A DNA stretch of 38,414 nucleotides from a virus: the IMG/VR virus record IMGVR_UViG_3300043431_000172, positions 1 to 38,414 of that record; one strand, written 5' to 3'. This document shows positions 21,183-38,414 of this stretch, in pieces. How positions within the stretch are numbered: the stretch's first letter is position 1; each line of letters begins with the position of its first letter. The translations under genes and the position numbers were made by a program. The notes below the pieces were generated by a model. It had not been told where the DNA came from and made no database searches. It was given only the letters and a program-made list of their open reading frames with translations.

Positions 21183-21219
21183 AAAGGCCCGTGACCCTCA
21201 GGTTGCGGGCCTTTTGCTT
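21183..21219. terminator. bidirectional intrinsic terminator between convergent operons
   Basis: Perfect 9-bp stem AAAGGCCCG (21183-21191) with CGGGCCTTT (21206-21214), 14-base loop, followed by TTGCTTT. The A-rich 5' arm supplies a short T run on the other strand, so it can stop both the rightward late operon and the leftward operon. Confidence 0.85.
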
Positions 21220-21222
21220 TCT

Positions 21223-21238
21223 GGCGCGCGGGGGTGTT
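21223..21238 (+). repeat. 16-bp direct repeat, copy 2
   Basis: Identical to 21106-21121. This copy overlaps the stop codon region of the last leftward gene (TAA on the - strand at 21237-21239). Confidence 0.85.
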
Positions 21239-21590: not shown

Positions 21591-21636
21591 GTCAGCCCCA
21601 CCACATCTGCATCTGTCAGCGCGCCCTTGATGTGGC

Positions 21637-23778: not shown

Positions 23779-23891
23779 CACAATACCCCCATGATCCAGA
23801 GCCAGCCTATCGCCCATGGCGCGGCGACGGTCGGGCCAAGCAACGCCGCCCAGACCAGAGCAGTGAACCAGTCGTTCTCGGCCCGCGTCAT
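23778..23891 (-). CDS. 37-aa membrane peptide
   Basis: Short frame ATG (23891) to TGA (23778-23780) translating to MTRAENDWFTALVWAALLGP and then TVAAPWAIGWLWIMGVL: a Trp-rich double hydrophobic segment. The stop overlaps the ATG of the DUF5131 gene in the TGATG style used throughout this operon, which supports a real, co-translated gene. No ribosome binding site was identified. Function unknown. Confidence 0.5.
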   Translation of the reverse strand: MTRAENDWFTALVWAALLGPTVAAPWAIGWLWIMGVL

Positions 23892-23930
23892 GCCGCCACC
23901 TGCATCGCGTAGCCGCCCCACTGGTCGGCC

Positions 23931-25227: not shown

Positions 25228-25254
25228 GTCATGCGGCCCCCTTGGCGCAGGCGA

Positions 25255-25440
25255 TCAGGACGCGCATCTGTCTGGTTCTCCGTCTGGAAAAGTTGGAAGC
25301 GCCTTCGCAACCCATTGGCCGCATTGGGCCGCATAAGTTGGACGATTTCCGGCTAAGGCGTTATGGCGAAACGCTTCCGGGATTCCTCCCGGGATCGCCA
25401 CCCACTGAATTTTCCCTTTAATGTTCAACGCGTTATGCAT
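25255..25440 (-). CDS. hypothetical protein, 61 aa
   Basis: Begins at an ATG overlapping the integrase stop (TGATG). It reads MHNALNIKGKIQWVAIPGGI, then PEAFRHNALAGNRPTYAAQ and CGQWVAKALPTFPDG. The overlap style and residue composition support a real small gene between integrase and methyltransferase, but no family was recognised. The A+T-richer stretch it occupies (about 25390-25445), directly downstream of the integrase, is also where an attachment site would be expected, so the frame could be incidental. Confidence 0.5.
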   Translation of the reverse strand: MHNALNIKGKIQWVAIPGGIPEAFRHNALAGNRPTYAAQCGQWVAKALPTFPDGEPDRCAS

Positions 25441-26519: not shown

Positions 26520-26677
26520 GTGTTGCCCCCCCTTGTCTGGTCTGGCAACGCTACCACGCTGTCGGGCGTGATGGTGACCCGCATCCCGCGATGCTCGATC
26601 AGGATCGCCGCGCCCGTCGCCCGTGCGACAAGTGCGGCGTCCTTCAACAGGCGCGCAGAAAGCGGGCTGGCGCTCAT
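26480..26677 (-). CDS. small protein in excisionase position, 65 aa
   Basis: A strong AAGGAGG site just upstream selects the ATG at 26677. The product SASPLSARLLKDAALVARAT, then GAAILIEHRGMRVTITPDS, is a small alpha/beta protein overlapping the integrase start by 40 bases. Excisionases and integrase-directionality factors are usually encoded exactly here, and the size fits, but no winged-helix Xis signature is obvious. An alternative is a small DNA mimic or other accessory protein. Confidence 0.7.
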   Translation of the reverse strand: MSASPLSARLLKDAALVARATGAAILIEHRGMRVTITPDSVVALPDQTRGGNTCDEIASRLVGSD

Positions 26678-26745
26678 TCATAGTCCTCCTTCTGTTCCAG
26701 CTGTTTGCGGCATTGCGCGAGCCAGTGATTTTCGATCGGGTTCAG
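26674..26745 (-). CDS. possible 23-aa peptide with CTG start
   Basis: In the 60-base gap between two genes one frame reads LNPIENHWLAQCRKQLEQKE then DYE, a well-formed amphipathic helix. Its only plausible start is a CTG overlapping the TGA of the DUF2303 gene (CTGA), and its stop overlaps the next ATG. No ATG, GTG or TTG is available. The pattern matches the overlap style of the operon, but a non-standard start makes this tentative. Confidence 0.3.
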   Translation of the reverse strand: MNPIENHWLAQCRKQLEQKEDYE

Positions 26746-27587
26746 GCCGGGCGGCCCATGAACACAGGCAGGCCGGTCTCATCCGCGGCAAGGATGGCCA
26801 TCTGGGTAAAGTGGCCGCGTCGCAGGTATTCGACGCGGTGCCAGTCAAACCCCATCATCACCCCGCCCTGGCCATTCGCGCGCCAGCGAAACAGCGCGAC
26901 CAGATCGCTGGGCTCTTCACCATTGTAGATCGGGATGTGGACGGTGAAGCGTTCCGGCACGATCACATTGGACGTGATCCGGCTTTCGTTTTCATAGACC
27001 AGCTTGCGGTCGCCGTTGTCGAGCCGGGTCGATGTCTTGTAGGTCTGCCCCGAGACCGCCTCGAAGTCGCGCGCAATCTCGACCAGCGACGCCGCTTCGG
27101 GATAGCCCACGTCGACGCTGTTCTCTTCCAGAAATCGCGCGAACTCGTCCTGCGGATATAGCTTCTTCGACACGCCAAGGGACATGGCATTCCAGCGATC
27201 GAACTCCTCGGAAAACCGCAACCGCAGCGTCACGCTGTGGTCGTCGGGCCCGGTGGACGCGCCGGCGGCGGCAGTTTCGCTGGCGCCGTGCCAGTCGAGC
27301 CGCGCGCTGATGGTGCCGGCGTCGTAGTCGGCGATGAGGATCGACCGGCTGTCCTTGAACCGGTTGGCGTAGGCCGCCAGTGAGGCGCGGTCGTCAACCG
27401 TCACCCGCTGCTTGGGCCATGGCGCAAGGCGCGCCGCATCCGGCAGCGGGTGCAGCTTGAAGCTGCCCGGAAGGGCCAGATACTGCGCGCCGTCGGGGCC
27501 TTCGTGCCCCGGCCTCGTGTTCAAGCCGGCCTCGATGGCGGCGTTCAGGGCCTGCCCGGGCCAGCCTGTTTCGTGTTCTGCGGTCAT
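26742..27587 (-). CDS. DUF2303 family protein
   Basis: A 281-residue protein with the DUF2303 pattern: VTVDDRASLAAYANRFKDSR, IADYDAGTISARLDWHGASE, the central FARFLEENSVDVGYPEAASL and the C-terminal PIYNGEEPSDLVALFRWRAN. These proteins are typical of phage recombination/early modules, and no biochemical function is established. AAGGAC precedes the ATG. It is paired with the upstream small gene at 27620-27952, a pairing seen repeatedly in alphaproteobacterial prophages. Confidence 0.9.
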   Translation of the reverse strand: MTAEHETGWPGQALNAAIEAGLNTRPGHEGPDGAQYLALPGSFKLHPLPDAARLAPWPKQRVTVDDRASLAAYANRFKDSRSILIADYDAGTISARLDWHGASETAAAGASTGPDDHSVTLRLRFSEEFDRWNAMSLGVSKKLYPQDEFARFLEENSVDVGYPEAASLVEIARDFEAVSGQTYKTSTRLDNGDRKLVYENESRITSNVIVPERFTVHIPIYNGEEPSDLVALFRWRANGQGGVMMGFDWHRVEYLRRGHFTQMAILAADETGLPVFMGRPA

Positions 27588-27619
27588 TTCGATTGTCCTT
27601 TTGATGAAAGTGGAGGGGG

Positions 27620-27952
27620 TCAGGAGCGGCCGGTCGGGGATACGCCCGGAATGTCGTCAATATCCATCTGGTCGGGATTTTGGCGCGACGGGCGATAGTC
27701 GTCGCCGATGAAATAGATTCCGGTCTGCAGCGTCGGTTTTGGTTTCGAGATCGCAATCGACGGATCGATTTCGAGCGCGCCGGTTTTCTTGTTTGGCTTG
27801 ATCTTCAGCTTCAAGGTGAAGGTGCCCCCGCCGCCCGTCAGCTTGATCGCCTCGAGCAATTCGGCAATGTCATCGTCCGCCGCGTCTGACACTTCCCCGC
27901 GCCGGAAGGTGCGCAGAAAGTCGATAAAATGCTGGCCGTTCATGTTGCGCAT
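27620..27952 (-). CDS. conserved phage protein adjacent to DUF2303, 110 aa
   Basis: The product reads NMNGQHFIDFLRTFRRGEVS, DAADDDIAELLEAIKLTGGGG, then TFTLKLKIKPNKKTGALEID and a closing IYFIGDDYRPSRQNPDQ. This matches a recurrent phage family that precedes DUF2303 genes, with an N-terminal helix pair, a beta-strand with alternating Lys, and a terminal NP-Q segment. The start at 27952 has an AAGGG site upstream. Probably acts with DUF2303 on DNA; this is inferred. Confidence 0.75.
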   Translation of the reverse strand: MRNMNGQHFIDFLRTFRRGEVSDAADDDIAELLEAIKLTGGGGTFTLKLKIKPNKKTGALEIDPSIAISKPKPTLQTGIYFIGDDYRPSRQNPDQMDIDDIPGVSPTGRS

Positions 27953-27989
27953 TGTGCGCCCTTTCGTTGTGATTGGCGGTTGCGCCAGG

Positions 27990-28250
27990 TCAAGCATGGG
28001 CAGGGTCCCGCTGGCCATTATTGGCCATGGCGGCGTTGATCAGGGCCAGCGCGGCGCCGACGGTCTGGGCATCGTCCCAGGCGTCGTGCGGCAGATCCAA
28101 GCCGAACATCTCTTCGGCCAGCATCGAGATTTCGACGGTGTCGAGGCTGTCGGCGCCCAAGTCGTCGATGAAGCGGGCGGTGTCGGTCACGTCCTCGACG
28201 GTGACGCCGAGGGTTTCGGCGACCAGCGCGCGAAAGCGGGCGGCGGTCAT
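27990..28250 (-). CDS. acpP: acyl carrier protein
   Basis: An 86-residue acidic protein with the phosphopantetheine attachment motif LGADSLDTVE (Ser35) and the whole ACP helical pattern: AETLGVTVEDVTDTARFIDD upstream and EMFGLDLPHDAWDDAQTVGA downstream. It closely follows bacterial fatty-acid-synthesis ACPs, and no signs of decay are seen. It would carry acyl groups after modification by a host phosphopantetheinyl transferase. The ATG overlaps the RecT-like gene stop (ATGA), so it is co-expressed with recombination genes, an unusual setting. It might redirect host lipid metabolism or serve as a structural partner. Confidence 0.93.
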   Translation of the reverse strand: MTAARFRALVAETLGVTVEDVTDTARFIDDLGADSLDTVEISMLAEEMFGLDLPHDAWDDAQTVGAALALINAAMANNGQRDPAHA

Positions 28251-29026
28251 TCTGCGGCGCCTTCCCGCGCTGCCAGATCGGCGGCCTGCTGCGCCTCGGC
28301 CATCGCGGCGGCGCGGTCGGACTCGCTGGGGGTGGTGTCAGGCTCGATGATGTCGTCAACCTCGGGCAGAGCCCGGTATGCCATGCCGCCGCGCCGATGG
28401 CGGTCGCCCGGCGTGATGTCGCGCGCAGCATCGGGGCCATAGTCTTGAACCTCTTCATTGACCTGCAAGCCCATGAGAGCGTCGGCAGCGCCATCGCGCG
28501 CGGCCCATGTTCTGGCCCTGTGTCCAAGCATCCTCTGGCCATAGTTCGACCACGGGCCGGCCTTACCCCATAGCCCGGCGCGCTTGGCATCGGCCACGCT
28601 GAACCGGCGCACATAGACCTTGCCTGTATCGCCCCGCGTCAAGGTCGCCACGGCGCAGAGGCTGTCACCATCCCCCACATAGTCCACATCGATGTGGTGC
28701 CCCGCGCGCTGCACCAACGCAGGAATCGCATCGCCCCAGATCGTCGGGCGGCCGTTGATTACCGCAATCGACGCCAGCGCCTGCATCGGGGCAAGGCCAA
28801 CCTCGGCGCCCTTTGCGATGGCCGCCATGATCTGCATGGGTTGGCCCTGAAACTGCTTCGGGATCATGTCGCCGGCCCGTGCCAAAGCCTCAGACAGGCG
28901 GAAGGCTTCTTCGACGCTCTGCGGCACAAGGCCGGAAACCGCCCCGCCCGCGCGGATCGTCGGCTTGGGATCTGCGGATTTCGTGGCAACAGCCGTGCTT
29001 GTCACTTGCTTCTCCTGATCTGTCAT
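28247..29026 (-). CDS. RecT-like single-strand annealing protein
   Basis: A 259-residue protein with the core pattern of RecT-family recombinases of alphaproteobacterial phages: IPKQFQGQPMQIMAAIAKGA, EVGLAPMQALASIAVINGRP and TIWGDAIPALVQRAG, followed by YGQRMLGHRARTWAARDGAA. It anneals complementary strands produced by the upstream exonuclease. ATG 29026 was selected because it overlaps the exonuclease stop. The C-terminal 50 residues are an Ala/Glu-rich acidic tail. Together with the exonuclease it forms a two-component recombination system. Confidence 0.85.
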   Translation of the reverse strand: MTDQEKQVTSTAVATKSADPKPTIRAGGAVSGLVPQSVEEAFRLSEALARAGDMIPKQFQGQPMQIMAAIAKGAEVGLAPMQALASIAVINGRPTIWGDAIPALVQRAGHHIDVDYVGDGDSLCAVATLTRGDTGKVYVRRFSVADAKRAGLWGKAGPWSNYGQRMLGHRARTWAARDGAADALMGLQVNEEVQDYGPDAARDITPGDRHRRGGMAYRALPEVDDIIEPDTTPSESDRAAAMAEAQQAADLAAREGAAE

Positions 29027-29949
29027 TGCGGGGCCTGCCATGCGCGCGCAGCGTCAAGCGCCTCTCTCGATGGCTTGGCTGCCGTCTCTGCCGCCGCGCG
29101 CGCCTCATGGCGCTGGTGGTAGAACTCGGGCAGGTCGAGCGTCAGGACTTGCCGGGGGTAGCCGGGGTATTCGCCGGTGCGCAGGCATTCGCCCCATGTC
29201 TCCCGCGCCCTCGTGCAGCGCAGCCCGGCAAGATCCATGTCCAAATCCGACAGGCTGACAACCGCGACCTCAAACGGGGCCGACTTCTCCTGAAAGATGA
29301 ACCAGAACTCGCGCAGCTGGCCCGTGGCTTCCTGCCATGCGTCGACGTAGAACCGCGCCTGCATGTCATAGCCATAGGCCATGATCGACCGGCGAACCGC
29401 GTCCGGGTCCGCACTCTCGCATGTCTTGAAATCGAAGAGCGGCAAGCGCGGGCTTTCGGGGGCGTTGTCAACCATCGCCCGGCACCAGACGCCGTTGACC
29501 ATCGCCAGCGCCGACAGTTCCGACCGGTCAGGGTCCAGTTTGATCCGGTAGTCACGCAGCGCATCGTGTGCCGTGTCTGCCATGGCTTGGATCGCCTCGA
29601 CCTTCTCCGACTTGAGCGGGGTCAGACCAGAGGCGCGCGCCTCGTTTACCCAAGCCCGCGCCTCCTTTGTCCGCACGCCGCCATCGTCAGAAAGCAGCGC
29701 ATCAGGGATCGCCACAAACTCGCCCCCGGCCCCAAGAATTGCGCGATGCGCGGCGCGTCCGATGTCGAACGCATCGCTCGTCTTGGGCTCATACTCGGGG
29801 TTCAGCCGCGGGTGCGCCGTCCATGCGTGCAGGGGGGACTGGTTGAGAACCACCCGCGCCAAACTGGACGACAAGGTGACCTCGGTCCGCAGAGCGTCCG
29901 CGTGATAGACTTCCGCGGGGATGCTGTGGATTCCAGCGGCATAGGTCAT
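29023..29949 (-). CDS. RecE/exonuclease VIII-like PD-(D/E)XK nuclease
   Basis: A 308-residue 5'-3' exonuclease candidate of the DUF3799/PDDEXK_1 type. Recognisable parts: GIHSIPAEVYHADALRTEVT at the start (the Y-H-x-D/E opening), SDAFDIGRAAHRAILGAG with the conserved His, and the metal-binding LPLFDFKTCESADPDAVRRS followed by YDMQARFYVDAWQ. It resects double-strand ends so the RecT-like protein can anneal them. First large gene of the recombination block, overlapping genes on both sides by ATGA. Confidence 0.9.
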   Translation of the reverse strand: MTYAAGIHSIPAEVYHADALRTEVTLSSSLARVVLNQSPLHAWTAHPRLNPEYEPKTSDAFDIGRAAHRAILGAGGEFVAIPDALLSDDGGVRTKEARAWVNEARASGLTPLKSEKVEAIQAMADTAHDALRDYRIKLDPDRSELSALAMVNGVWCRAMVDNAPESPRLPLFDFKTCESADPDAVRRSIMAYGYDMQARFYVDAWQEATGQLREFWFIFQEKSAPFEVAVVSLSDLDMDLAGLRCTRARETWGECLRTGEYPGYPRQVLTLDLPEFYHQRHEARAAAETAAKPSREALDAARAWQAPQ

Positions 29950-30362
29950 GGCAGCACCGCCCAGAGCCGCGCCATCGTCACGATCACCTGCACCGAGGCG
30001 ACAGCGGCAACGGCCATGACAAAGTAAAACAGCACCTTGTCGATCGGGTCAGACGGCGCGCGCTTGAAGCTGTGCAGGTATTCCCGGACATGGTCAGCGG
30101 CGCGCATCGGCGGCGGGGTCAGGTCGACGGGCTCCTCGGGGACAAATTGCCGCGCCAAGTGCGCCCGCCATTCGTCGCGCAGGGTGTCCTCGGTGTTGCC
30201 CTCAATCGCGCGCAGGACGGCAACGATGCCCCGAGGCGAGGGGCTCGCCGCTGACGCCTCGGGGCTGGCCGCCGGATTGTCGTGAGTGGCATCGGCGGCG
30301 GGAAGGGTGCCCCACGGCGTCCATTCGGTGCGCGCGGGACGGGGAAATCGGACGACGGTCAT
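29946..30362 (-). CDS. tail-anchored hypothetical protein, 138 aa
   Basis: An N-terminal disordered Pro/Ala/Ser-rich part, a middle helical region (EWRAHLARQFVPEEPVDLTP and MRAADHVREYLHSFKR) and a single C-terminal membrane helix (VLFYFVMAVAAVASVQVIV). This topology places most of the protein in the cytoplasm at the inner membrane. No family was recognised. It overlaps the exonuclease gene and the gene upstream. Confidence 0.65.
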   Translation of the reverse strand: MTVVRFPRPARTEWTPWGTLPAADATHDNPAASPEASAASPSPRGIVAVLRAIEGNTEDTLRDEWRAHLARQFVPEEPVDLTPPPMRAADHVREYLHSFKRAPSDPIDKVLFYFVMAVAAVASVQVIVTMARLWAVLP

Positions 30363-30625
30363 TCGGCAGGCTCCTTTTCAAAGGCGACAAGGCCGCACGT
30401 CGGGGCGTGCTGCTGGATGAAGGCGCGCAAGGCGCCGATGTCGTTCAGGTCGACCACGGCGGCACCCATTACGCGGGCCGCCTCGGCGGTCAGGACAGCG
30501 GCCTTGGCAAGGCAGTTGTCCGCGTCAGGCTTGTGGCCCCAGATCGACAGCGTCGATGCCGTGTCGATCTGCCTGGCCGCCTCGTGGCAGTTGGTGCGTG
30601 CGACCCACACACGATCCGGGATCAT
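30359..30625 (-). CDS. hypothetical protein, 88 aa
   Basis: The product IPDRVWVARTNCHEAARQID is followed by helix-rich NCLAKAAVLTAEAARVMGAA and VVDLNDIGALRAFIQQHAPT. The ATG at 30625 was chosen because upstream in-frame residues are an Arg-rich shadow of the next gene. Early leftward gene of unknown function; ATGA overlaps at both ends. Confidence 0.6.
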   Translation of the reverse strand: MIPDRVWVARTNCHEAARQIDTASTLSIWGHKPDADNCLAKAAVLTAEAARVMGAAVVDLNDIGALRAFIQQHAPTCGLVAFEKEPAE

Positions 30626-30870
30626 GCCGCGCTCCTCGCCTTGCGCCGCGCGTCGACAATTGCCGCGCAGGCGCCGGTCACGTCCTCGACCGACACCGGC
30701 CGTGCACCATCGGTCTGGACGCGCCAGACGATCACCGCCGCGGGGTTGTCGCTCTCCGACATAAAGTCGGCCGCGCTGTCGATGTCGGTCAGCGGGTCGC
30801 CGGGGTAGGCATGCCCGAGGCCGCACCGGAAGTGCTCAAGGCCGATGAACAGGACGGGGGGGAGGGTCAT
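30622..30870 (-). CDS. hypothetical acidic protein, 82 aa
   Basis: Begins TLPPVLFIGLEHFRCGLGHA, then YPGDPLTDIDSAADFMSESD, and ends with a helix IVDARRKARSAA. The ATG 30870 is preceded by no clear ribosome binding site. Unknown function. Second gene of the leftward operon after a 219-base stretch that is occupied by a + strand frame. Confidence 0.6.
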   Translation of the reverse strand: MTLPPVLFIGLEHFRCGLGHAYPGDPLTDIDSAADFMSESDNPAAVIVWRVQTDGARPVSVEDVTGACAAIVDARRKARSAA

Positions 30871-30961
30871 GCGGGGCGGCTCCGTCAGTTGAAAACGATT
30901 GGCGAATCGGGGCGGCACCGTGCTGGCATGGGGGTCTGACCCAAACAGCGAGGAGACGCAG

Positions 30962-31219
30962 ATGGACTTGGTCATTTTCCCGGCCGTGATCGGACGGGCG
31001 CAGGCCGACGGCGACCTGTTCGAGGCGACCGTTGAAGCGAACATCAACGACGCCAGCCTTCCGGCGTTCGACGGCGGCGGGCTAAAGGTCACCGCCGTTT
31101 GGCCAGTCGCAGACGCCGGTCAACTTCCGCTGTCGCGTCTTGAACGGCTTGCCGATGCACATCTTGCAGGGCTGCTTGAAGCCATTGCATCTGAACTGCG
31201 GAAAAGAGCGGGGGGATAG
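30962..31219 (+). CDS. hypothetical protein antisense to early leftward transcript, 85 aa
   Basis: A + strand frame with a good GAGGAG site ahead of ATG 30962, encoding MDLVIFPAVIGRAQADGDLF, ATVEANINDASLPAFDGGGL and a helical C-terminus RLERLADAHLAGLLEAIASE. It lies inside the leftward operon, and its last 131 bases overlap the first leftward gene on the opposite strand. Coding character is good. It would need its own promoter; a TTGAAA at 30889 is present but no convincing -10. Confidence 0.55.
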   Translation: MDLVIFPAVIGRAQADGDLFEATVEANINDASLPAFDGGGLKVTAVWPVADAGQLPLSRLERLADAHLAGLLEAIASELRKRAGG

Positions 31220-31253
31220 CCTCGGGCCGTTCCGCGTTCTCTTGCTGGTCCAT
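31089..31253 (-). CDS. first gene of leftward operon, small basic-tailed protein (N position)
   Basis: A 54-residue product starting 30 bases from the PL transcription start, with GGAGG eight bases before the ATG. It reads MDQQENAERPEAIPPLFSAV, an amphipathic helix QMQWLQAALQDVHRQAVQDA, and ends basic (DRRLRLAKRR). In lambda this position belongs to the antiterminator N, also small with an Arg-rich RNA-binding segment, although in N that segment is N-terminal. No sequence similarity is claimed; the parallel is positional. Its 3' part lies antisense to a + strand gene. Confidence 0.55.
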   Translation of the reverse strand: MDQQENAERPEAIPPLFSAVQMQWLQAALQDVHRQAVQDATAEVDRRLRLAKRR

Positions 31254-31282
31254 TGTGACAGCCTCCATGCCGGTGGGTATGG

Positions 31283-31316
31283 AGGGGAGGTTATATCCGC
31301 TAAAGCGGACAGTCAA
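31283..31316 (-). promoter_or_regulatory. leftward early promoter PL
   Basis: On the - strand, TTGACT (31316-31311) and TATAAC (31295-31290) are separated by 15 bases completely filled by a repressor operator. This is nearly the same arrangement as at PR, so both should be silenced by the same protein. Transcription should start around 31280-31283. Confidence 0.75.
31296..31309. promoter_or_regulatory. operator OL1 (perfect 14-bp palindrome)
   Basis: TCCGCTAAAGCGGA, arms TCCGCT and AGCGGA, lies between the -35 and -10 boxes of PL. Identical in arms to the PR operator at 32511-32524. Expected binding site of the CI-like repressor and of Cro. Confidence 0.85.
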
Positions 31317-31325
31317 GCCCATTTA

Positions 31326-31339
31326 TCCGCTAAAGAGGA
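31326..31339. promoter_or_regulatory. operator OL2
   Basis: TCCGCTAAAGAGGA, one mismatch from the perfect palindrome; its centre is 30 bp from that of OL1. Probably allows cooperative repressor binding upstream of PL. Confidence 0.75.
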
Positions 31340-31422
31340 CACACTTTCGAAGACGTGCCGCGGCGCTTGCCGAATCGCGCAGGCCGGTGGACTATGGGGC
31401 GCGAGGGTTCAGGGGGGTGACG

Positions 31423-31794
31423 ATGCCTAGAGCGGTGCTGGCGGCGATTTCTGCGGGGCTTCTGGCGGGGTGCGCAACGCCTGCCGATCAGATCGCCCCG
31501 GCCTATGTGTCGCCCGCGATCTATCAGCACCTGTCCTGCGACCAGATACAGCACGAGGTCCGCAACGTCGTCACGCTGTCGAATGTCGCCGCGCAGAACC
31601 AGACGGCGGCAGCAGAGGCCGATCAGATTGGCATGGCTATAGGGCTTCTGGTGCTGTGGCCGATGCTGTTGTTCACGGGCGGGGATGGCGCAACTGCGGC
31701 TGAGGTCGCGCAGCTGCGCGGGCAGATGGTCGCCCTCGAACAGATCAGCGCGCAGAAGGGATGCGGGATCGAGTTCGCAACGCAGCCGGGCTAG
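31423..31794 (+). CDS. lipoprotein, candidate lysogenic-conversion gene
   Basis: A 123-residue product with a bacterial lipoprotein signal: MPRAVLAAISAGLLAGCATP, lipobox LAGC with the acylated Cys17. The mature part has YVSPAIYQHLSCDQIQHEVR, a long helical region with one hydrophobic segment (GMAIGLLVLWPMLLFTGG), and a closing Cys. An AGGGGGG run precedes the ATG. The gene lies between the PL operators and the repressor gene, convergent with the repressor, outside both early operons, where phages carry genes expressed in the lysogen. A superinfection-exclusion role is possible but inferred. Confidence 0.75.
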   Translation: MPRAVLAAISAGLLAGCATPADQIAPAYVSPAIYQHLSCDQIQHEVRNVVTLSNVAAQNQTAAAEADQIGMAIGLLVLWPMLLFTGGDGATAAEVAQLRGQMVALEQISAQKGCGIEFATQPG

Positions 31795-31798
31795 GCGG

Positions 31799-32449
31799 TC
31801 ACATCTTCACCCCAGCCCAGACAACCTTACCGATCACTGTCAGATCATCCAGCGCGCGCTCCACTGGCGGGTGCGCCGGATTGTCGCTGACAAGCATCAC
31901 GAATCCGCGGCGTGATGCCCGGCTGATCCGCTTGACCAGCATGGAATCCCCGCCGTCGCGGATCACGAATATGCCTTCGAAAGACAGGTCGCGCTTCGTG
32001 ATGTCGATCATCACCACATCATCGTCGCGCAGGGTCGGCTCCATGCTACGGCCCTTGACCGAGATCACAGCCAAGTTGGCCGGATTGGCCGACGTGATGC
32101 TGCGCAGGTAGCCGGGCGGGAACGCAAGCCGGTCGATGATCTCCTCGGGCTCGGTCACGCTGAAACCGTTCCCCGCACTGGCCGAGACGTTATAGACCGG
32201 CACAAGTGCGTGGCCGTCCGGGTCAAGCGGCGCGGCGGCTGAGTCGTCCCGGCCGGTCAGCACCCATTCCAGGTCGCAAGGGATCTGGTCGCAGACCCGG
32301 CGCAGGTTCCTTATGCTGGGCACCTTGCCTTCGTTCAACATTGCACTGACATACCCATGCCCTCGGCCTGACGACAGGCTGATGTCGCGCAGGCTTTTGC
32401 CGCTGTCCGTGATCGCCGCCAAAAGGCGAGTTTTCCAGTTCTCATCCAT
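31799..32449 (-). CDS. cI: CI-like repressor with LexA/S24 self-cleavage domain
   Basis: Maintains lysogeny by binding the operators at PL and PR. In the 216-residue product, the N-terminal HTH (about residues 8-52) includes SLRDISLSSGRGHGYVSAML. The C-terminal S24 peptidase domain has an Ala92-Gly93 cleavage site in SASAGNGFS, the nucleophile in GRSMEPTL (Ser135) and the general base in LVKRIS (Lys173), so SOS-induced self-cleavage is expected. Start: ATG 32449 gives a conserved-looking N-terminus; ATG 32467 (adding six residues) lies inside operator 32460-32473 and is an alternative. Neither has a clear ribosome binding site. Convergent with the lipoprotein gene. Confidence 0.92.
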   Translation of the reverse strand: MDENWKTRLLAAITDSGKSLRDISLSSGRGHGYVSAMLNEGKVPSIRNLRRVCDQIPCDLEWVLTGRDDSAAAPLDPDGHALVPVYNVSASAGNGFSVTEPEEIIDRLAFPPGYLRSITSANPANLAVISVKGRSMEPTLRDDDVVMIDITKRDLSFEGIFVIRDGGDSMLVKRISRASRRGFVMLVSDNPAHPPVERALDDLTVIGKVVWAGVKM

Positions 32450-32459
32450 CCGACGACTA

Positions 32460-32473
32460 TCCGCCATAGCGGA
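32460..32473. promoter_or_regulatory. operator OR, repressor-proximal
   Basis: TCCGCCATAGCGGA; one half site matches the consensus arm exactly and the other differs at one base. Overlaps the 5' end of the repressor gene. Its centre is 26 bp from the next operator. Confidence 0.7.
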
Positions 32474-32481
32474 CGCGCTTG

Positions 32482-32499
32482 CACGTCCGTTATAAAGGA
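32482..32499 (-). promoter_or_regulatory. repressor maintenance promoter (PRM-like)
   Basis: On the - strand TATAAC (32494-32489) lies 22 bases before ATG 32467 and 40 before ATG 32449. No good -35 is present at the right distance, as in lambda PRM, which needs activation. The box is covered by the middle operator, so high repressor levels should shut it down. Confidence 0.5.
32486..32499. promoter_or_regulatory. operator OR, middle (degenerate)
   Basis: TCCGTTATAAAGGA, extended on both sides by G and C to a GTCC...GGAC inverted repeat. The weakest match of the set; centres are 26 and 25 bp from the two flanking operators. Confidence 0.65.
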
Positions 32500-32502
32500 C
32501 GG

Positions 32503-32530
32503 TTGACCTGTCCGCTTTAGCGGATATAAT
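32503..32530 (+). promoter_or_regulatory. rightward early promoter PR
   Basis: TTGACC (32503-32508) and a perfect TATAAT (32525-32530), 16 bases apart, the spacer ending in the perfect operator palindrome. Predicted start near 32537, only a few bases before the cro ATG at 32541, and no ribosome binding site is present, so the cro message may be nearly leaderless. Confidence 0.88.
32511..32524. promoter_or_regulatory. operator OR at PR (perfect 14-bp palindrome)
   Basis: TCCGCTTTAGCGGA fills the PR spacer; it is the reverse complement of the palindrome in PL. A bound repressor would directly block RNA polymerase. Confidence 0.88.
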
Positions 32531-32540
32531 CGACTGCATC

Positions 32541-32750
32541 ATGACCACAGAACAAATCCTCCTCCGAGATATTGAGGCCTTCCTTGCCGCAACCGGCATG
32601 GGCGCGAGCTACTTCGGCAAGCGCGCGACGGGCAATTCCGAACTGGTCGGGCGCCTGCGGGATGGGCGGCCAATCCTGACCGAAACGGAGCGCCGCGTTC
32701 GAGACTTCATGGCGGCAAACCGCCTTGCGAAGAGTGCGGGCGCTGCATGA
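32541..32750 (+). CDS. cro: Cro-like transcriptional regulator, 69 aa
   Basis: A small DNA-binding protein transcribed divergently from the repressor, from PR. It reads TTEQILLRDIEAFLAATGMG, then ASYFGKRATGNSELVGRLRD (the helix-turn-helix, about residues 20-45) and ILTETERRVRDFMAANRLAK. It should compete with the repressor for the same operators and favour lytic growth. Position, size and HTH all fit Cro. The transcript probably begins only 3-5 bases upstream of the ATG. Confidence 0.85.
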   Translation: MTTEQILLRDIEAFLAATGMGASYFGKRATGNSELVGRLRDGRPILTETERRVRDFMAANRLAKSAGAA

Positions 32751-32900
32751 TGCCCGACGTTCTCTTGCCTGCATCCTACCTGTGGGCAGGCAAGCTGGCC
32801 CGCAAGGTATGGAATGCCTGCATGTCCGAAAGGACAGGTTCGCCAACCGCCGCGCGACTGCCGGGGCACGTCCTCCGAGATCGCCCTTGCGCGGCGCACT

Positions 32901-32938
32901 CCCGCCCGGGTTTCCTCCTTGGCCCGGGCGGGCTTTTT
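32901..32938 (+). terminator. intrinsic terminator tR1-like
   Basis: Perfect 10-bp G+C stem CCCGCCCGGG (32901-32910) with CCCGGGCGGG (32923-32932), 12-base loop, followed by CTTTTT. Lies 150 bases after cro, where lambda has tR1; expression of the downstream genes should require read-through. Confidence 0.92.
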
Positions 32939-33028
32939 CCCATTTCGCGGCAGGGCGATCCTCTCGCCCTGGACGGCCAAGGGGGCGGCTGCTGCCGCGA
33001 AAGCCCCCGCTCCTCCCTGTCAGCGACT

Positions 33029-33061
33029 GCCGGGCGGGTTGCCAGCCTGCCCGGCCTTTTT
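33029..33061 (+). terminator. second intrinsic terminator of the right leader
   Basis: 7-bp stem GCCGGGC (33029-33035) with GCCCGGC (33049-33055), 13-base loop, then C and TTTTT. Tandem with the terminator at 32901-32938. Confidence 0.75.
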
Positions 33062-33109
33062 CTGGCCGGGGCCGTTTCCGCCGACACCCTCGATCTGTCA
33101 GGCACAACC

Positions 33110-33379
33110 GTGACGATCCGCCCGCACGCAACCGCGCTGGCCGAGGTCGTGTATCTCAACGCGCCCCGCAACGGGTCGTGGCACAACGGCGAGTATCCTC
33201 TGACGCTGGACGGGCTGACGGTGATCGTCGCCTTCACGTGGGATGCGTCGGGCGAGGCCGACAGCATCGCGCTGCGCGTGCCGGCTGGCGTCGTCTGCGC
33301 CCCCAGCTGCGAGACCGCGATCCCCGAGGGCGGCGCTGCGACGATCACGCTGCACGATTTGCAATCGGTGGGCATGTGA
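33110..33379 (+). CDS. hypothetical protein after the right-leader terminators, 89 aa
   Basis: The coding sense is clear from about 33085: LSGTTVTIRPHATALAEVVY, then LNAPRNGSWHNGEYPLTLDG, VAFTWDASGEADSIALRVPA and two Cys near the C-terminus. No ATG exists in this part; GTG 33110 with a weak AGG is the best standard start. The frame stays open upstream to 32747 but passes through two terminators, and just before the clear coding part it encodes LPGLFLAGAVSA, which resembles the end of a secretion signal. An alternative start nearer 33040-33065 cannot be excluded. Function unknown; a secreted or beta-rich protein is possible. Confidence 0.55.
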   Translation: MTIRPHATALAEVVYLNAPRNGSWHNGEYPLTLDGLTVIVAFTWDASGEADSIALRVPAGVVCAPSCETAIPEGGAATITLHDLQSVGM

Positions 33380-33576
33380 TGCCCATCGCCCCGCAGACCT
33401 TTCCAGACGCCCTCATGCGCGCCCTCAAGGCGGCCCGCAGTGTGGCCGAGGTCGATGGCGCCGTCATGGCGCGCAAGGCCCTGATCGACGCCGGCATGGC
33501 GCCGCAGATCGGGTCGCTGGAATCCGAGGCCGTCGCGTGGCGCCGCGCCGAACTGACAAAGCAGGGGAAGCAATGA
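33379..33576 (+). CDS. hypothetical protein, 65 aa
   Basis: A helical protein beginning PIAPQTFPDALMRALKAARS, then VAEVDGAVMARKALIDAGMA, ending in ESEAVAWRRAELTKQGKQ. TGATG overlap with the upstream gene and ATGA overlap with the downstream gene. No family recognised. Belongs to the early right operon ahead of HTH proteins. Confidence 0.65.
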   Translation: MPIAPQTFPDALMRALKAARSVAEVDGAVMARKALIDAGMAPQIGSLESEAVAWRRAELTKQGKQ

Positions 33577-33791
33577 CCAAAAAGCCAAAGCCGAATGAGC
33601 CCCGCAAGATGTCCGACGATGCGATCTTGACTCTGGTGCGCTTGCGGTCCGCGGGGATCAGGGTGAGCCGCATCGCCAAGGACGCCGGCTGCACATCCGC
33701 CTATGTCGTCACGACAACCGACAGGATCAGGGCCGCCGATCTGGCCGAGAGCGGTGAGAGCAAGGCCGCCGTCGCGCGGGGGTATTGGTGA
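33573..33791 (+). CDS. small helix-turn-helix protein, 72 aa
   Basis: Reads KMSDDAILTLVRLRSAGIRV, SRIAKDAGCTSAYVVTTTDR, IRAADLAESGESKAAVARGY. The segment ILTLVRLRSAGIRVSRIAKD-AGCTSAYVV has the spacing of an HTH of the sigma-70-region-4/resolvase kind. Probably a DNA-binding regulator of replication or late gene expression, but the target cannot be deduced. A very basic N-terminus (TKKPKPNEPRK) may contact DNA backbone. Stop overlaps the next ATG. Confidence 0.7.
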   Translation: MTKKPKPNEPRKMSDDAILTLVRLRSAGIRVSRIAKDAGCTSAYVVTTTDRIRAADLAESGESKAAVARGYW

Positions 33792-34411
33792 TGCGCACAG
33801 TCATTGTCGAACGCATGACCATATCTGGGATGAACATCAAGCCCCACCGGATCAGCCTGCCGGCCGCGCCGTGGGATGACATCACCCCGAAGGCCGAGGT
33901 GCCCACCCGCGCCGACAGCAACACCCTGCCGCCGCGCGATGTGCCACCTGCGCCGCGCCCCGTCGTCAAGCCCTCCCCGCAGGTCGACCCGGTCCAGCGC
34001 GCGACGATGGAGGAACTGATCGGCCGCGCGCTGGCGAATGTGGCGCGGCGCGAGGGCAAAGAGGCCAAGGCGCCTTTGACCGGCAGGTGCGACATGCGGG
34101 AAGTGCTCGACCTTGCCAAGGCCCGGCGCGAGGCGGTCAAGGCGCTGACCGCGCGCGGGCTGACGGTTCAGGACATCGCGCAGCGCCTCGGGCAACCCCT
34201 CTGGCAGATCAAGAAGGATCTTCGCCTGCTGGCGACTGCGGCACAACGACTGCCGCACAAGGAGGCCATTGCCAAGCGGCGCGCGAGGGTCGCGCAACTG
34301 CTGGCCCAAGGCTGGACGCAGGGCCGCATCGCAGAGCACCTAGGCGGAAGCGTAACCACCGTGGAGGGTGATGTGCGCTGGATCAAGAAGCAGGCCAAGG
34401 CGAATGGGTGA
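33791..34411 (+). CDS. tandem helix-turn-helix protein, candidate regulator or replication initiator accessory
   Basis: A 206-residue protein. The N-terminal 75 residues are Pro-rich and probably disordered (NTLPPRDVPPAPRPVVKPSP). A middle helix (ATMEELIGRALANVARREGK) follows, then two consecutive HTH units: ALTARGLTVQDIAQRLGQPL-WQIKKDL (about 118-143) and LLAQGWTQGRIAEHLGGSVT-TVEGDVRWI (about 172-200). Duplicated HTHs fit binding to repeated DNA sites. The gene lies upstream of the resolvase and the RepA-like ATPase, so it could bind the iterons at 36631-36735, or be a late-gene activator. ATG 33791 overlaps the previous stop. Confidence 0.65.
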   Translation: MRTVIVERMTISGMNIKPHRISLPAAPWDDITPKAEVPTRADSNTLPPRDVPPAPRPVVKPSPQVDPVQRATMEELIGRALANVARREGKEAKAPLTGRCDMREVLDLAKARREAVKALTARGLTVQDIAQRLGQPLWQIKKDLRLLATAAQRLPHKEAIAKRRARVAQLLAQGWTQGRIAEHLGGSVTTVEGDVRWIKKQAKANG

Positions 34412-34823
34412 CGCGCGCGTGATCTCTTTTGCCATCCCCGGCAAGCCCTTTGGCAAGCAGCGCCCGAGGGCAACAGCCAGGGGCGGCCATGCGCGCGTCT
34501 ACACGCCTGCGCAGACGGTCAGTTTCGAGCGGCAGGTCGGCGCTATCGCCGCTCCCCTGTTCCCCTCCCCCATGGCCGGACCGTTGCGTCTGACGGTCAT
34601 CGCCACATTCGCCCCGGCCGACAGCAAGTCGCGCCGTGCCCGAGAGGCCATGATCGGCACCCCGCACACCCAGCGACCAGACACCGACAACTGCGCAAAA
34701 GCCGTCATGGACGGCCTGAACCGCATCGCATGGGCAGACGACGCGCAGGTCGCGGAAATCGTCGCCCGCAAGCAGTGGGGCACAGACAACGGCACGCTGG
34801 TCGTCGTGGAGGCGATAACATGA
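34404..34823 (+). CDS. rusA: RusA-family Holliday junction resolvase
   Basis: Resolves branched recombination and replication intermediates. The 139-residue product has the RusA pattern: ISFAIPGKPFGKQRPRATAR at residues 7-26, and the catalytic block HTQRPDTDNCAKAVMDGLNR with Asp93, Asp95, Asp103 and a further Asp pair at 112-113 (AWADDAQV). Length is normal. The ATG lies inside the end of the tandem-HTH gene, and the stop overlaps the next ATG. Works downstream of the RecE/RecT-like pair. Confidence 0.92.
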   Translation: MGDARVISFAIPGKPFGKQRPRATARGGHARVYTPAQTVSFERQVGAIAAPLFPSPMAGPLRLTVIATFAPADSKSRRAREAMIGTPHTQRPDTDNCAKAVMDGLNRIAWADDAQVAEIVARKQWGTDNGTLVVVEAIT

Positions 34824-35041
34824 GCGCCACCGCCGACGAAATCGCCGCCCTGCTGGTCTGGCCCCCGATCATCGTGCAGGCCAGCGGCATCACCGAATGG
34901 GAACGCAAGTTCTGCGCCTCGATCATCGCGCGGAACCGGAGCGGCGCGTTTCGGCCAAGCCCCGCGCAGGTGGCCGTCCTGCGCCGCATCGTCGGGGCGT
35001 TCAGGGCGCGGATGCTGAAAGATGAACGAGTGGTCGAATGA
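34820..35041 (+). CDS. hypothetical protein, 73 aa
   Basis: Reads SATADEIAALLVWPPIIVQA, SGITEWERKFCASIIARNRS, then SPAQVAVLRRIVGAFRARML. The segment WERKFCASIIARNRSGAFRPSPAQVAVLRRIV resembles a small domain repeated in phage early genes and may be DNA-binding. No established function. ATGA overlaps on both sides. Confidence 0.65.
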   Translation: MSATADEIAALLVWPPIIVQASGITEWERKFCASIIARNRSGAFRPSPAQVAVLRRIVGAFRARMLKDERVVE

Positions 35042-35361
35042 TGACGGCCCAACACAAGCGCGCGGCCGACATGCTCGGCTTAACCCTGCTCCTCGGTGAC
35101 GCCGATGCATGGCATGGCTTCAGTCTTCTTGCGGCGACGACCCTGACCGCCGAGGAGCGCGTTCTGATGGCGTGGTCGGTCCTGCGGGCACTGGACCCGG
35201 AAGCAGTCGCCAGCATTGCGACAACCATCATTGGCGACATTGGCCCCCCTTGCGTGCCAATGTTCAACGATCTGGTGGCCGAGGCTGACACATGGGTTGC
35301 ATGGGCAAGCCCGCGAGAAAGAGCCGCCTACAGCGAGGCCTTGGCATGGTATCAGTCATGA
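35038..35361 (+). CDS. hypothetical protein, 107 aa
   Basis: An alpha-helical protein: MMTAQHKRAADMLGLTLLLG, DADAWHGFSLLAATTLTAEE, RVLMAWSVLRALDPEAVASI and a Trp-rich C-terminus. ATG 35038 overlaps the preceding stop (ATGA), with a second ATG at 35041. Stop overlaps the start of the ATPase gene, so it may act with it. Family unknown. Confidence 0.65.
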   Translation: MMTAQHKRAADMLGLTLLLGDADAWHGFSLLAATTLTAEERVLMAWSVLRALDPEAVASIATTIIGDIGPPCVPMFNDLVAEADTWVAWASPRERAAYSEALAWYQS

Positions 35362-36626
35362 AGGGCCGCAGGACACCAGAGCAGCTTGAGGAGGCCCGGC
35401 GCAAGCTGGATCAGGCCTTTGCCGAGGATGCGGGCGGCTTGGGGGTCGATGACTTCGACGCCCCGCCTGATGCGGTATATGCCGCCGACATCGAAACCAA
35501 TGTCAGGGCCTTTCCAAGCGGTCAGCCGCGCGCGACGGTCATCACCCCGCGGGCCGAGCGTGAATCAACATGGTTCTCTGCGGCTGATCTGGAAGGCAAA
35601 CCCATCCCACAGCGTCAATGGCTGGTTGACGGCCTCGTGCCCTCCAAGACCGTGACCCTGTTCGGGGGCGACGGCGGCACCGGCAAGAGCCTGCTTGCCC
35701 TGCAACTGGCCGCAGCCGTGGCGTCAGGGACGAAGTGGCTCAACAGGGACGTATCATCCGGCCGGGTCATCTTCATCAGCGCCGAGGACGACGAGGACGA
35801 GCTCCACCGGCGCCTGCACGACATCAAGACAGCGGCCGGGGTCGACTTTTCCGACCTGTCCGAACTGACCCTGCGCAGCCTTGCCGGTGAAGACGCCCTC
35901 CTTGCGATCGAGTCAAACGTTGCCCTCGTTCAGTCGGCCCTGTTCGATGAACTGGACACCCGCGCCGGGCTGGTCGAGCCGACATTGATCGTGATCGACA
36001 CGCTGGCCGATGTATACCCGTCGAACGAAAACGACCGGGCCAAGGTGCGGCAGTTCATCGGCATCCTGCGGGGGCTGGCCCTCAAGCGTGAGTGCGCCTT
36101 GATCCTTCTGGCCCACCCGTCGCTTTCCGGCCTGAACTCCGGGTCTGGCACGTCAGGCTCGACCGCCTGGAACAACTCTGTAAGGTCGCGCCTCTATCTC
36201 TCCCGCATCGCGCAAGACGGCCACGAGCCCGACCCTGACAAGCGCATTCTGGCGACGAAGAAAGCCAATTACGGGCAGGTCGGCGGCGAAATAGCCATGA
36301 CTTGGCGAAATGGCGTTTTCGTGGAAGATGAAACGCCAGATTCACTAGAGAGAATGGCGATTGGCTCAAAGGCTGAAAGAGTTTTCATGAAGCTGTTAAG
36401 GGAATTTGCGCAACAGGGCAGAACAGTTAGCGCAAGCCCTAGTGTTTCATATGCGCCGACCGTGTTCGCAAAGCATCCGAAGTCTGAAGGAATGACCGAC
36501 AAGGCGCTGTCTCAAGCCATGAACACGCTGTTCGATCGGGGCGAAATCGTCATCGAGGAGCAGGGTCCGCTGTCCCGCCGCCGCGCCTTCATCGCCATCG
36601 CCGGCGCCAAAAAGGAGCCAAAATGA
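35358..36626 (+). CDS. RepA-like AAA ATPase / replicative helicase
   Basis: A 422-residue AAA_25/RecA-fold ATPase of the RepA type, probably the phage replicative helicase or helicase loader. Walker A is GGDGGTGKS (103-111), with FISAEDDEDELHRRL after it, Walker B LIVIDTLADVYP (Asp214) and the sensor segment LILLAHPSLSG. Residues from about 325 form a winged-helix-like C-terminal domain. The DNA for about 36330-36500 is richer in A+T than the rest of the gene. The gene ends directly at an iteron array, so it probably works at that origin. ATG 35358 chosen for the ATGA overlap. Confidence 0.88.
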   Translation: MKGRRTPEQLEEARRKLDQAFAEDAGGLGVDDFDAPPDAVYAADIETNVRAFPSGQPRATVITPRAERESTWFSAADLEGKPIPQRQWLVDGLVPSKTVTLFGGDGGTGKSLLALQLAAAVASGTKWLNRDVSSGRVIFISAEDDEDELHRRLHDIKTAAGVDFSDLSELTLRSLAGEDALLAIESNVALVQSALFDELDTRAGLVEPTLIVIDTLADVYPSNENDRAKVRQFIGILRGLALKRECALILLAHPSLSGLNSGSGTSGSTAWNNSVRSRLYLSRIAQDGHEPDPDKRILATKKANYGQVGGEIAMTWRNGVFVEDETPDSLERMAIGSKAERVFMKLLREFAQQGRTVSASPSVSYAPTVFAKHPKSEGMTDKALSQAMNTLFDRGEIVIEEQGPLSRRRAFIAIAGAKKEPK

Positions 36627-36630
36627 CCCC

Positions 36631-36735
36631 TTCCAACGCCCTTCCAACGCCTTCCAACGCCCTTCCAACGCCAAAAACGGCCCTTCCAACGGCCTTCCAA
36701 CGCCATTCCAACGGCCTTCCAACGGCCTTCCAACG
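36631..36735 (+). repeat. iteron array, nine TTCCAACG repeats (candidate replication origin)
   Basis: TTCCAACG begins at 36631, 36642, 36652, 36663, 36684, 36695, 36706, 36717 and 36728. The spacing is 11, 10, 11, 21, 11, 11, 11 and 11 bases, one helical turn each, with a degenerate unit in the 21-base gap. Eight copies are preceded by C; one (36706) by A. The array starts five bases after the RepA-like ATPase stop. Helically phased iterons beside a replication gene are a hallmark of phage and plasmid origins. A reading frame runs through but only encodes SNALPTP-type repeats. Confidence 0.88.
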
Positions 36736-36755
36736 ATGCACACACTACCCCCCCT

Positions 36756-36807
36756 CTTACAGAGGGAAGCTCGCCCGCTGGCGGCGGGCGCTTCCCCCGG
36801 CTGTAAG
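36756..36807 (+). repeat. large three-part inverted repeat next to the iterons
   Basis: CTTACAG (36756-36762) pairs with CTGTAAG (36801-36807), GGGAAGC (36764-36770) with GCTTCCC (36790-36796), and GCCCGC (36773-36778) with GCGGGC (36784-36789), leaving a five-base loop. No T run follows, so it is not a typical terminator. It could be a cruciform or single-strand initiation structure of the origin. Confidence 0.8.
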
Positions 36808-36861
36808 GGGTGCCCGTTCGGCGGCACTGCCGGCCTCCGCCCAAGCCGGTCAGGTGGCGGC

Positions 36862-37059
36862 ATGATCGCGTTCGACACCGTCCCCGAACTCGGGACCATC
36901 ATCAAGGCCGGCAAGGTCAAGGCCCGGCTGATTGCCGTATCGCCCTATATTCGCAAGGACGGGCGGCAATCGCAAATCCTGCATTGGCAGGATGAATATG
37001 GAAGGACGGGCACAACAGGCCTAAAGGCAAATTCCATGCAATGGCAAAGGAAGTGGTAA
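36862..37059 (+). CDS. hypothetical protein, 65 aa
   Basis: Reads MIAFDTVPELGTIIKAGKVK, ARLIAVSPYIRKDGRQSQIL, then HWQDEYGRTGTTGLKANSMQ. A compact basic beta-type protein, possibly nucleic-acid-binding. AGGTGG precedes the ATG. The 55 bases between the stem-loop and this gene show no other feature. Function unknown. Confidence 0.6.
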   Translation: MIAFDTVPELGTIIKAGKVKARLIAVSPYIRKDGRQSQILHWQDEYGRTGTTGLKANSMQWQRKW

Positions 37060-37062
37060 CCG

Positions 37063-37344
37063 ATGAACCGCTCCGACATCCTCGACGCCGCCAAGCAATG
37101 CGTCACCAAAGACCGCAATGCAATTTACGGACCACCAGAACAATCATTCGCGCAGATCGCTGCAATTTTGTCTGTGCGCCTCGGTGTCCTAATTCGCGCC
37201 GATCAAGTTGCGATTATGCTCATCGACCTGAAAACCGTCAGGGCATGGGGCAACCCGAACCACGTCGATTCGTGGGTTGATCTGGCGGGCTATGCGGCCT
37301 GCGGTGGCGAGATCGGGACGGAGGCTGTCAATGGGCAAGGGTGA
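37063..37344 (+). CDS. DUF6378-family protein
   Basis: A 93-residue protein with the characteristic DRNAIYGPPEQSFAQIAAIL near residue 17 and ADQVAIMLIDLKTVRAWGNP followed by HVDSWVDLAGYAACGGE. The conserved Y-G-x-P and D-S-W-x-D-L-A-G-Y elements occur in a small phage family (DUF6378, formerly seen fused to dATP/dGTP pyrophosphohydrolase-like proteins), so a nucleotide-related function is possible. AAGGAAG lies upstream of the ATG. It overlaps the next gene by 14 bases. Confidence 0.8.
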   Translation: MNRSDILDAAKQCVTKDRNAIYGPPEQSFAQIAAILSVRLGVLIRADQVAIMLIDLKTVRAWGNPNHVDSWVDLAGYAACGGEIGTEAVNGQG

Positions 37345-37954
37345 TCGCCGCGGCAAGAGCACCCCGGCAAAGCTGCCAGAACTGGCGCCGGTCGCCGCGT
37401 CTCGGCACAAGCAGCACCGCGACCGCGGCCGGTTCGCGCGGCCGGCAGAAGATCCCCGCGCGACGGCCCTTGCCGCCCGCTGCCACCAGATGGGCAAGAC
37501 CCCGACCCGGGAGGAGCGCGCGGCAGCAGCCCACCCCGCCGCCGGGTCGCCGCTTGGAATGGTCGCGCTGCATGTCCACGGCCAGCGCGAGGCAGCCAAG
37601 CTGTGGGGCGTGTGGCAGGCGTTCGGGATTGCGGAACGAGCCTATCGGGTGCGTATCCTTGGCATGACAGGCACGCCCGCCAATGCGGCTATCTCCATGC
37701 TGCCCGAGCGGGTAGAGGTGGAGGAAAGCCTGTCACCCGATCTGCGCGAGCCGCCCGAGAAGGACGCTGATGCCGTCCGCGCGTGGATGCACTGGCGCGG
37801 GCTGATCGGGCAACTGGACGCTGTCGACTCGCTCCTGCTGCACGCGGCCGAACGCGGCAACGGGCCGGAACTGTGGCGCGATGGGAAGCCGACAACGGTC
37901 GGCCTTGCGACCTGCGCTGCGCTGGTGCGGCTGGCGGATGTGGTCGAGCGGTGA
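37331..37954 (+). CDS. hypothetical protein, 207 aa
   Basis: The N-terminal 60 residues are very basic (MGKGDRRGKSTPAKLP, then SRHKQHRDRGRFARPAEDPR), suggesting nucleic-acid binding. The middle is helical (MVALHVHGQREAAKLWGVWQ, AFGIAERAYRVRILG). The C-terminal half reads KDADAVRAWMHWRGLIGQLD and closes with LATCAALVRLADVVER. No family recognised. Last gene of the right early operon, just ahead of the predicted late promoter; in lambda the late antiterminator Q is encoded at this position. No sequence evidence for Q function. Confidence 0.65.
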   Translation: MGKGDRRGKSTPAKLPELAPVAASRHKQHRDRGRFARPAEDPRATALAARCHQMGKTPTREERAAAAHPAAGSPLGMVALHVHGQREAAKLWGVWQAFGIAERAYRVRILGMTGTPANAAISMLPERVEVEESLSPDLREPPEKDADAVRAWMHWRGLIGQLDAVDSLLLHAAERGNGPELWRDGKPTTVGLATCAALVRLADVVER

Positions 37955-37974
37955 GGCTGGCGCACGCTGCCTAC

Positions 37975-38003
37975 TTGACAAACTGCAACCTCTCCGCGAG
38001 TAT
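37975..38003 (+). promoter_or_regulatory. candidate late promoter
   Basis: Perfect -35 TTGACA (37975-37980), 17-base spacer, weak -10 GAGTAT (37998-38003). Located in the only sizeable gap (37955-38068) before HNH and the terminase genes. Confidence 0.5.
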
Positions 38004-38021
38004 CCTGACGGAAGGGCGCAC

Positions 38022-38050
38022 AAGGGCTAGGGGGAAACCTCTGGCCCTTT
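38022..38050 (+). terminator. hairpin just downstream of the late promoter
   Basis: AAGGGCTAG (38022-38030) pairs with CTGGCCCTT (38041-38049), one G-T pair possible, ten-base loop, followed by TGCTATT. A weak T tract makes it a partial or regulated terminator, comparable in place to lambda tR'. Confidence 0.5.
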
Positions 38051-38068
38051 GCTATTGGCGGGGTCAAG

Positions 38069-38374
38069 ATGGCGGCAGGTCGCAAGGCTTGGGCGCATCA
38101 AGGGTCGCGGCACGAGCGCGGTTACGGGTCGGCTTGGGTCCGGCTGCGCGCAATCATCCTTGATCGTGATCTGCACCTTTGCCAGCCATGCCGCCGCCTC
38201 GGCCGGGTGACGCCGGCAACGCAGGTCGACCACATCAAGCCCAAAGCCAATGGCGGCACGGACGACAGCGACAACCTGCAGGCCATCTGCGAGCCCTGCC
38301 ACGACGCCAAGACCGAGGCGGACAAGGGCCGGCCGATGGCCCGGAAGGTCGGGCTGGACGGCTACCCCATCTGA
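38069..38374 (+). CDS. HNH endonuclease, packaging-associated
   Basis: A 101-residue HNH nuclease with zinc ligands Cys38/Cys41 and Cys74/Cys77, and the HNH residues in TQVDHIKPKANGGTDDSDNL (His55, Asn69) and CEPCHDAKT (His78). Size and location match the HK97 gp74-type enzymes that stimulate terminase cutting at cos in phages where the HNH gene neighbours the small terminase. Here the small terminase gene is at the other edge of the window, adjacent if the genome is circularised. Confidence 0.93.
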   Translation: MAAGRKAWAHQGSRHERGYGSAWVRLRAIILDRDLHLCQPCRRLGRVTPATQVDHIKPKANGGTDDSDNLQAICEPCHDAKTEADKGRPMARKVGLDGYPI

Positions 38375-38414
38375 CGGGGGGTGGGTCAATCTCTGGGCCG
38401 AAGGGCGCCGGGAC
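38375..38414. other. right genome end, probable cos side
   Basis: Forty G+C-rich non-coding bases after the HNH gene, with no feature other than the GGGCCG and GGGCGCC runs. Would join position 1 if this is a linear cos-ended genome. Confidence 0.35.

Follow-up and report, generated by a model that had tools for sequence, protein, structure and literature searches.

The rightward early operon of a temperate phage was found to carry two strong intrinsic terminators in tandem, T1 and T2, after its cro-position gene. From their place in the sequence, they may stop PR transcription early and so act as a checkpoint, one that ribosomes coupled to cro translation might relieve; we put this reading forward tentatively, as a serious candidate somewhat short of probable. 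The analysis covered the IMG/VR record IMGVR_UViG_3300043431_000172 as one window of 38,414 bases (65.6% GC). Its gene plan is that of a temperate phage with relatives in Rhodobacterales and other alphaproteobacteria, and its left end carries terminase and its right end HNH, suggesting a permuted genome. To our knowledge, the control of early transcription in temperate phages of Rhodobacterales has been little described. The main features of the locus are as follows.

31294–31341: OL, two further 18-bp palindromes
31799–32467, minus strand: CI, S24-type, divergent from the cro-position gene across OR
32458–32475, 32484–32501 and 32509–32526: OR, three 18-bp operator-like palindromes from a pattern search, the middle site being read from the sequence
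32503–32530, plus strand: promoter PR, TTGACC-16-TATAAT, 11 of 12 matches
32541–32750, plus strand: cro-position gene, 69 aa, 39–71% identical to its relatives in 43 loci
32747–32752, plus strand: ATGATG, the putative coupled start, two ATGs overlapping the cro stop TGA
32747–33379, plus strand: 210-codon open frame, through T1 and T2 into the next gene
32901–32932 (stem) and 32933–32939 (tail CTTTTTC), plus strand: T1, intrinsic terminator with a 12-pair GC-rich stem
33017–33379, plus strand: secreted-protein-like gene, with a signal peptide at about 33017–33082 (ending AVSA/D) and a conserved domain
33029–33055 (stem) and 33056–33062 (tail CTTTTTC), plus strand: T2, intrinsic terminator with a 12-pair stem
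33379–36626, plus strand: early genes to which transcription from PR has to extend (two small genes, an HTH protein, RusA and an AAA_25 helicase)

For the operators, the pattern search returned 7 matches in the window against 0.01 expected. PR was the only promoter-like match on the plus strand from 19400 to 38414, with no comparable promoter downstream, in a search that would miss sites unlike the sigma-70 consensus. Since intrinsic terminators sit between cro and the early genes, early transcription from PR must pass a stop signal, and the layout of PR, cro, terminators and early genes given in the original prediction is real. The −10 element of PR ends only 10 nt upstream of the cro ATG (32525–32541); the cro mRNA therefore probably has little or no leader. 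A lipoprotein-like gene was also noted between OL and cI (31384–31794, plus strand), with a relative near cI in another locus, L031 (E 3e-9); it is possibly expressed in lysogeny.

T1 scored 32 (−26.9 kcal/mol, z −4.0) and T2 scored 30 (−23.9 kcal/mol), each being a GC-rich hairpin directly before a T-run, above chance, and they are the strongest terminators of the whole 38-kb window. Only three sites in the window score at least 26, against 0.07 expected from dinucleotide shuffles: T1, T2 and a terminator of the same class at 21186–21211, near the end of the rightward structural genes. The two tandem intrinsic terminators that had been predicted after cro are thus present. In unrelated IMG/VR contigs the exact T1 stem with its T-run stands at the end of an endolysin gene, good evidence for T1 as an ordinary terminator. 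Both T1 and T2 would be expected to terminate in vivo. An origin of the pair by tandem duplication was considered and found unsupported (514 of 2000 shuffles).

We propose that RNA polymerase from PR would transcribe cro and then stop at T1 or T2 unless prevented, the two terminators acting as an attenuator in the place of lambda tR1 in the rightward early operon. This checkpoint is the simplest reading because a strong promoter is followed by two strong terminators and no comparable promoter lies downstream. Translation would be the most likely means of relief: ribosomes ending cro could re-start at ATGATG and trail the polymerase along the single frame that spans T1 and T2, keeping both hairpins from forming and so tying early-gene expression to the translation of cro. 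In E. coli, a trailing ribosome blocks intrinsic terminator hairpins (PMC5021804), and many 3′ ends lie inside ORFs and 5′ leaders (PMC7815308). The promoter, cro, both terminators, the overlapping start, the open frame and the location of T2 in a coding part can all be read directly from the DNA; from these we infer that the 32747 frame is translated and that read-through occurs by translation or simple leakage, not by a phage antiterminator.

Both terminators are covered by an open frame with a start, from ATGATG at 32747 to 33379, and the frame opened at the cro overlap is that of the next gene. The 43 loci with related cro (L001, L004–L018 and L020–L046) supplied 39 distinct cro genes, 36 of which have a stop that overlaps or touches a following start (42% for random stops); in 31 of the 39 the following ORF has at least 50 codons (21% for random stops of the same loci). 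The genes starting at the end of cro differ among the loci of the family. At the sequence level, the overlap of cro stop and next start would be a family-wide sign of translational coupling, and we counted it in favour of translation, along with the next gene having no other ordinary start near its signal peptide. On the other side, we counted that the ATG overlapping the cro stop has no Shine-Dalgarno-like sequence and that codon usage is poor between 32750 and 33016 (1.4th percentile of real genes, yet above 98.6% of wrong frames); along the frame it is intermediate at first and becomes gene-like only at about 33020. Moreover, a frame staying open this long would not be unusual at 70% GC (probability about 0.17 per frame), and the 320 nt from 32751 to 33070 contain no stop in any of the three plus-strand frames. 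Translated whole, the frame would also place the signal peptide 90 codons from the protein's start, where it would not act as such peptides usually do. The possibility that the stretch from cro to T1 holds a complete small gene of its own was considered and rejected, as its codon usage is poor and it has no relative.

The open frame also bears on where the next gene begins. The secreted-protein-like gene has homologues in Microcystis phage Mae-JY02 and in a Rhodobacterales genome; in both, the N-terminus is hydrophobic at the position of ATAGRVASLPGLFLAGAVSA/D, and this match puts T2 inside coding sequence. T2 had been taken as intergenic: it does lie downstream of cro, but within the 5′ coding part of the next gene. 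Likewise, the stretch described as lying between cro and the next gene does follow cro, but an open frame spans it. No in-frame ATG, GTG or TTG occurs between 32822 and 33110. Either the whole 32747 frame is translated or the gene uses another start, for example CTG at 33017, or else GTG at 33110, in which case its product would lack the signal peptide; a frame error concealed by the assembly is a further possibility. The gene belongs to a small exported-protein family of undescribed function common to this phage, Microcystis phage Mae-JY02 and a Rhodobacterales genome (33071–33379 in the window, 3929–4321 in L003 and 1258–1746 in L056).

Further inverted repeats lie around T1, and a small gene occupies the N position of the left operon.

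32764–32772/32786–32794, plus strand: 9-bp perfect inverted repeat, the first hairpin of the original prediction
32766–32822 (57 nt), plus strand: stem-loop I, predicted to be stable, about 22 pairs with bulges
32823–32836, plus strand: TGTCC-GAAA-GGACA hairpin, previously proposed as boxB, abutting stem-loop I
32943–32953/32992–33002: 11-bp perfect inverted repeat
32951–32958/32964–32971: 8-bp perfect inverted repeat
31089–31253, minus strand: 54-residue gene with its ATG at 31253, first of the PL operon, in the N position

The perfect stems reported after cro exist as inverted repeats; the first, however, is of 9 bp and not 8, and is not the stable fold. Although worth −14.5 kcal/mol, it has a pair probability of 0.003 in the predicted fold, and on the folding model it can form early and would then be replaced by stem-loop I. 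Stem-loop I and the GAAA hairpin together have a predicted energy of −36.2 kcal/mol. The 71-nt unit that they make up (32766–32836) reached z −3.8, with 4 of 2000 shuffles folding as well, an optimistic value as its ends were picked on the fold itself. Among fixed 80-nt windows, 32761–32840 ranks 24th of 959, and the region 32751–32899, which leaves out T1, folds slightly better than shuffles (z −1.7). By these predictions the overall leader structure is only mildly unusual. The TGTCC-GAAA-GGACA hairpin is where it had been described, at chance frequency: 5-bp stems with a GNRA loop number 2 on that strand against 2.1 expected. It was also considered as a covert operator and rejected, its core spacer being 4 nt against 8 in the 18-bp operators.

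Homologue searches returned little for the region beyond cro. Across the 43 loci with related cro, the cro DNA aligns and nothing after it does; none has tandem terminators, and the failure to find the arrangement in any of these relatives was counted against the checkpoint. No leader homologue came from distant blastn against phages and plasmids; in 395 genomes of one Rhodobacterales family, blastn matched once, weakly, and only in the coding part. The hairpin pattern had 8 matches in IMG/VR, all unrelated. A covariance model of the two stem-loops found only the window itself in 48 sources and nothing in 198 genomes, the latter search being run without a positive control. No Rfam match above the gathering threshold was obtained in the window.

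The original prediction had read the leader hairpins as a nut- or put-like antitermination element, and the sequence tests do not support this reading. Like sites on the PL and PR transcripts are a trait of both nut and put, and we therefore took as decisive a paired-site test in which the PL leader is locally aligned with the post-cro sequence and compared with 1000 shuffles. The test recovered lambda nutL/nutR and HK022 putL/putR, each with 0 of 1000 shuffles reaching the score. No paired copy was found in the window, where 418, 296 and 531 of 1000 shuffles did so. A cruder blast self-comparison, which misses the HK022 pair, recovered the lambda pair and gave only operators in the window. 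With a boxA consensus taken from general knowledge, no boxA-like site within 3 mismatches was found in the leader region. The CTCTT put forward as boxA, at 32762–32766, is not a boxA and is buried in a hairpin; it lies 56 nt from the GAAA hairpin, whereas nut needs boxA followed by boxB within a few bases. The leader also showed no resemblance to the nut sequence, and alignment with putR found no likeness (539 of 1000 shuffles reach the score), so the statement that its sequence resembles neither lambda nut nor HK022 put was borne out. Even the put region of HK022 does not fold below its shuffles, so folding energy is no discriminator here.

These tests weigh on both forms of antitermination. 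In the manner of N, a phage protein such as the 54-residue product could act through a site between cro and T1 and let polymerase pass processively. The layout of PR, cro, terminator and early genes would suit this, as would a small protein, basic at its C-terminus only, whose gene takes the N position and has a good Shine-Dalgarno sequence in front; there is also an alphaproteobacterial precedent for passing GC-rich terminators by antitermination (GafYZ, PMC11150451). We nevertheless consider it quite unlikely: the PL leader lacks a second site in a test that lambda passes with 0 of 1000, no boxA was found, the left operon has no strong terminator, and no family or relative was found for the 54-residue protein. 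The gene for this protein overlaps an antisense 106-codon ORF (30899–31219, plus strand), both being coding-like, and the PL leader holds a 7-bp hairpin, CCTCCAT/ATGGAGG (31262–31285, minus strand), with the Shine-Dalgarno sequence of the 54-residue gene forming its 3′ arm, which makes translational control possible. In the manner of put, the 71-nt stem-loop pair would itself bind RNA polymerase in cis so that T1 and T2 are ignored without any protein. A putRNA has two stem-loops in about 70 nt, and the distance from the PR start to putR is about 270 nt (PMC9378689); on the predicted fold, 32766–32836 likewise offers two stem-loops in about 70 nt downstream of PR, 230 nt after the start, and outfolds all but 4 of 2000 shuffles. 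Against this, the left copy is absent in the very test that recovers putL/putR, no sequence likeness to putR exists, no homologue was found by pattern, blast or covariance model, and equally well-folded 80-nt windows occur 23 other times in the window. We regard a put-like RNA as very improbable. More doubtful still is the idea that the unit, from its single copy in the PR operon, represents a new sequence class of antiterminator RNA that works without protein.

The simplest competitor is that plain terminators end the cro transcript, the downstream genes being served by leakage or by an unrecognised promoter, with the hairpins and the open frame functionless. In other phages the T1 stem serves as an ordinary terminator at the end of a gene, the upstream fold ranks no higher than the top few percent of windows, and nothing is conserved upstream of T1. 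Two strong tandem terminators before the replication genes would, however, be costly without regulation, and no other promoter was found there by a search restricted to sigma-70-like sites; we judge this account somewhat unlikely. Among the alternatives to relief by translation, leaky termination would thus come before a phage antiterminator, and the latter before a put-like RNA. Overall, under the checkpoint reading, the locus offers a clear and testable candidate for termination control after cro. Should ribosomes indeed give relief at T1 and T2, access to the early genes would depend on cro being translated and not on an N-like protein.

Several known systems can be set beside this arrangement. 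As with tR1/nutR of lambda, the termination region lies directly after cro in the PR operon and before the replication genes. Lambda tR1 is Rho-dependent, whereas here two intrinsic terminators are found, and unlike lambda the locus has no boxA, no nut pair and no recognisable N, which in lambda is a protein with an arginine-rich RNA-binding motif. The put RNA of HK022 acts through the zinc-binding domain of the RNA polymerase beta′ subunit, giving protein-free antitermination; the leader is similar to putR in having a predicted unit of about 70 nt with two stem-loops, 200–300 nt downstream of PR and upstream of terminators, and differs in lacking a putL counterpart, sequence similarity and conservation. 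In the Caulobacter GTA, an alphaproteobacterial phage-like operon likewise has its first gene followed by GC-rich terminators, the terGTA region, in that case three 150-bp direct repeats, and GafY/GafZ are thought to load at the promoter (PMC11150451). Lastly, translation-relieved attenuators such as pyrL differ in that no regulatory codon run was recognised here, that ribosome entry would be via the cro overlap and that translation is putative; they are alike in that the terminators lie within an open frame, where ribosomes behind the polymerase would keep the hairpins from forming. Attenuation itself is known, and the locus would be a case of it in the tR1 position, built of intrinsic terminators.
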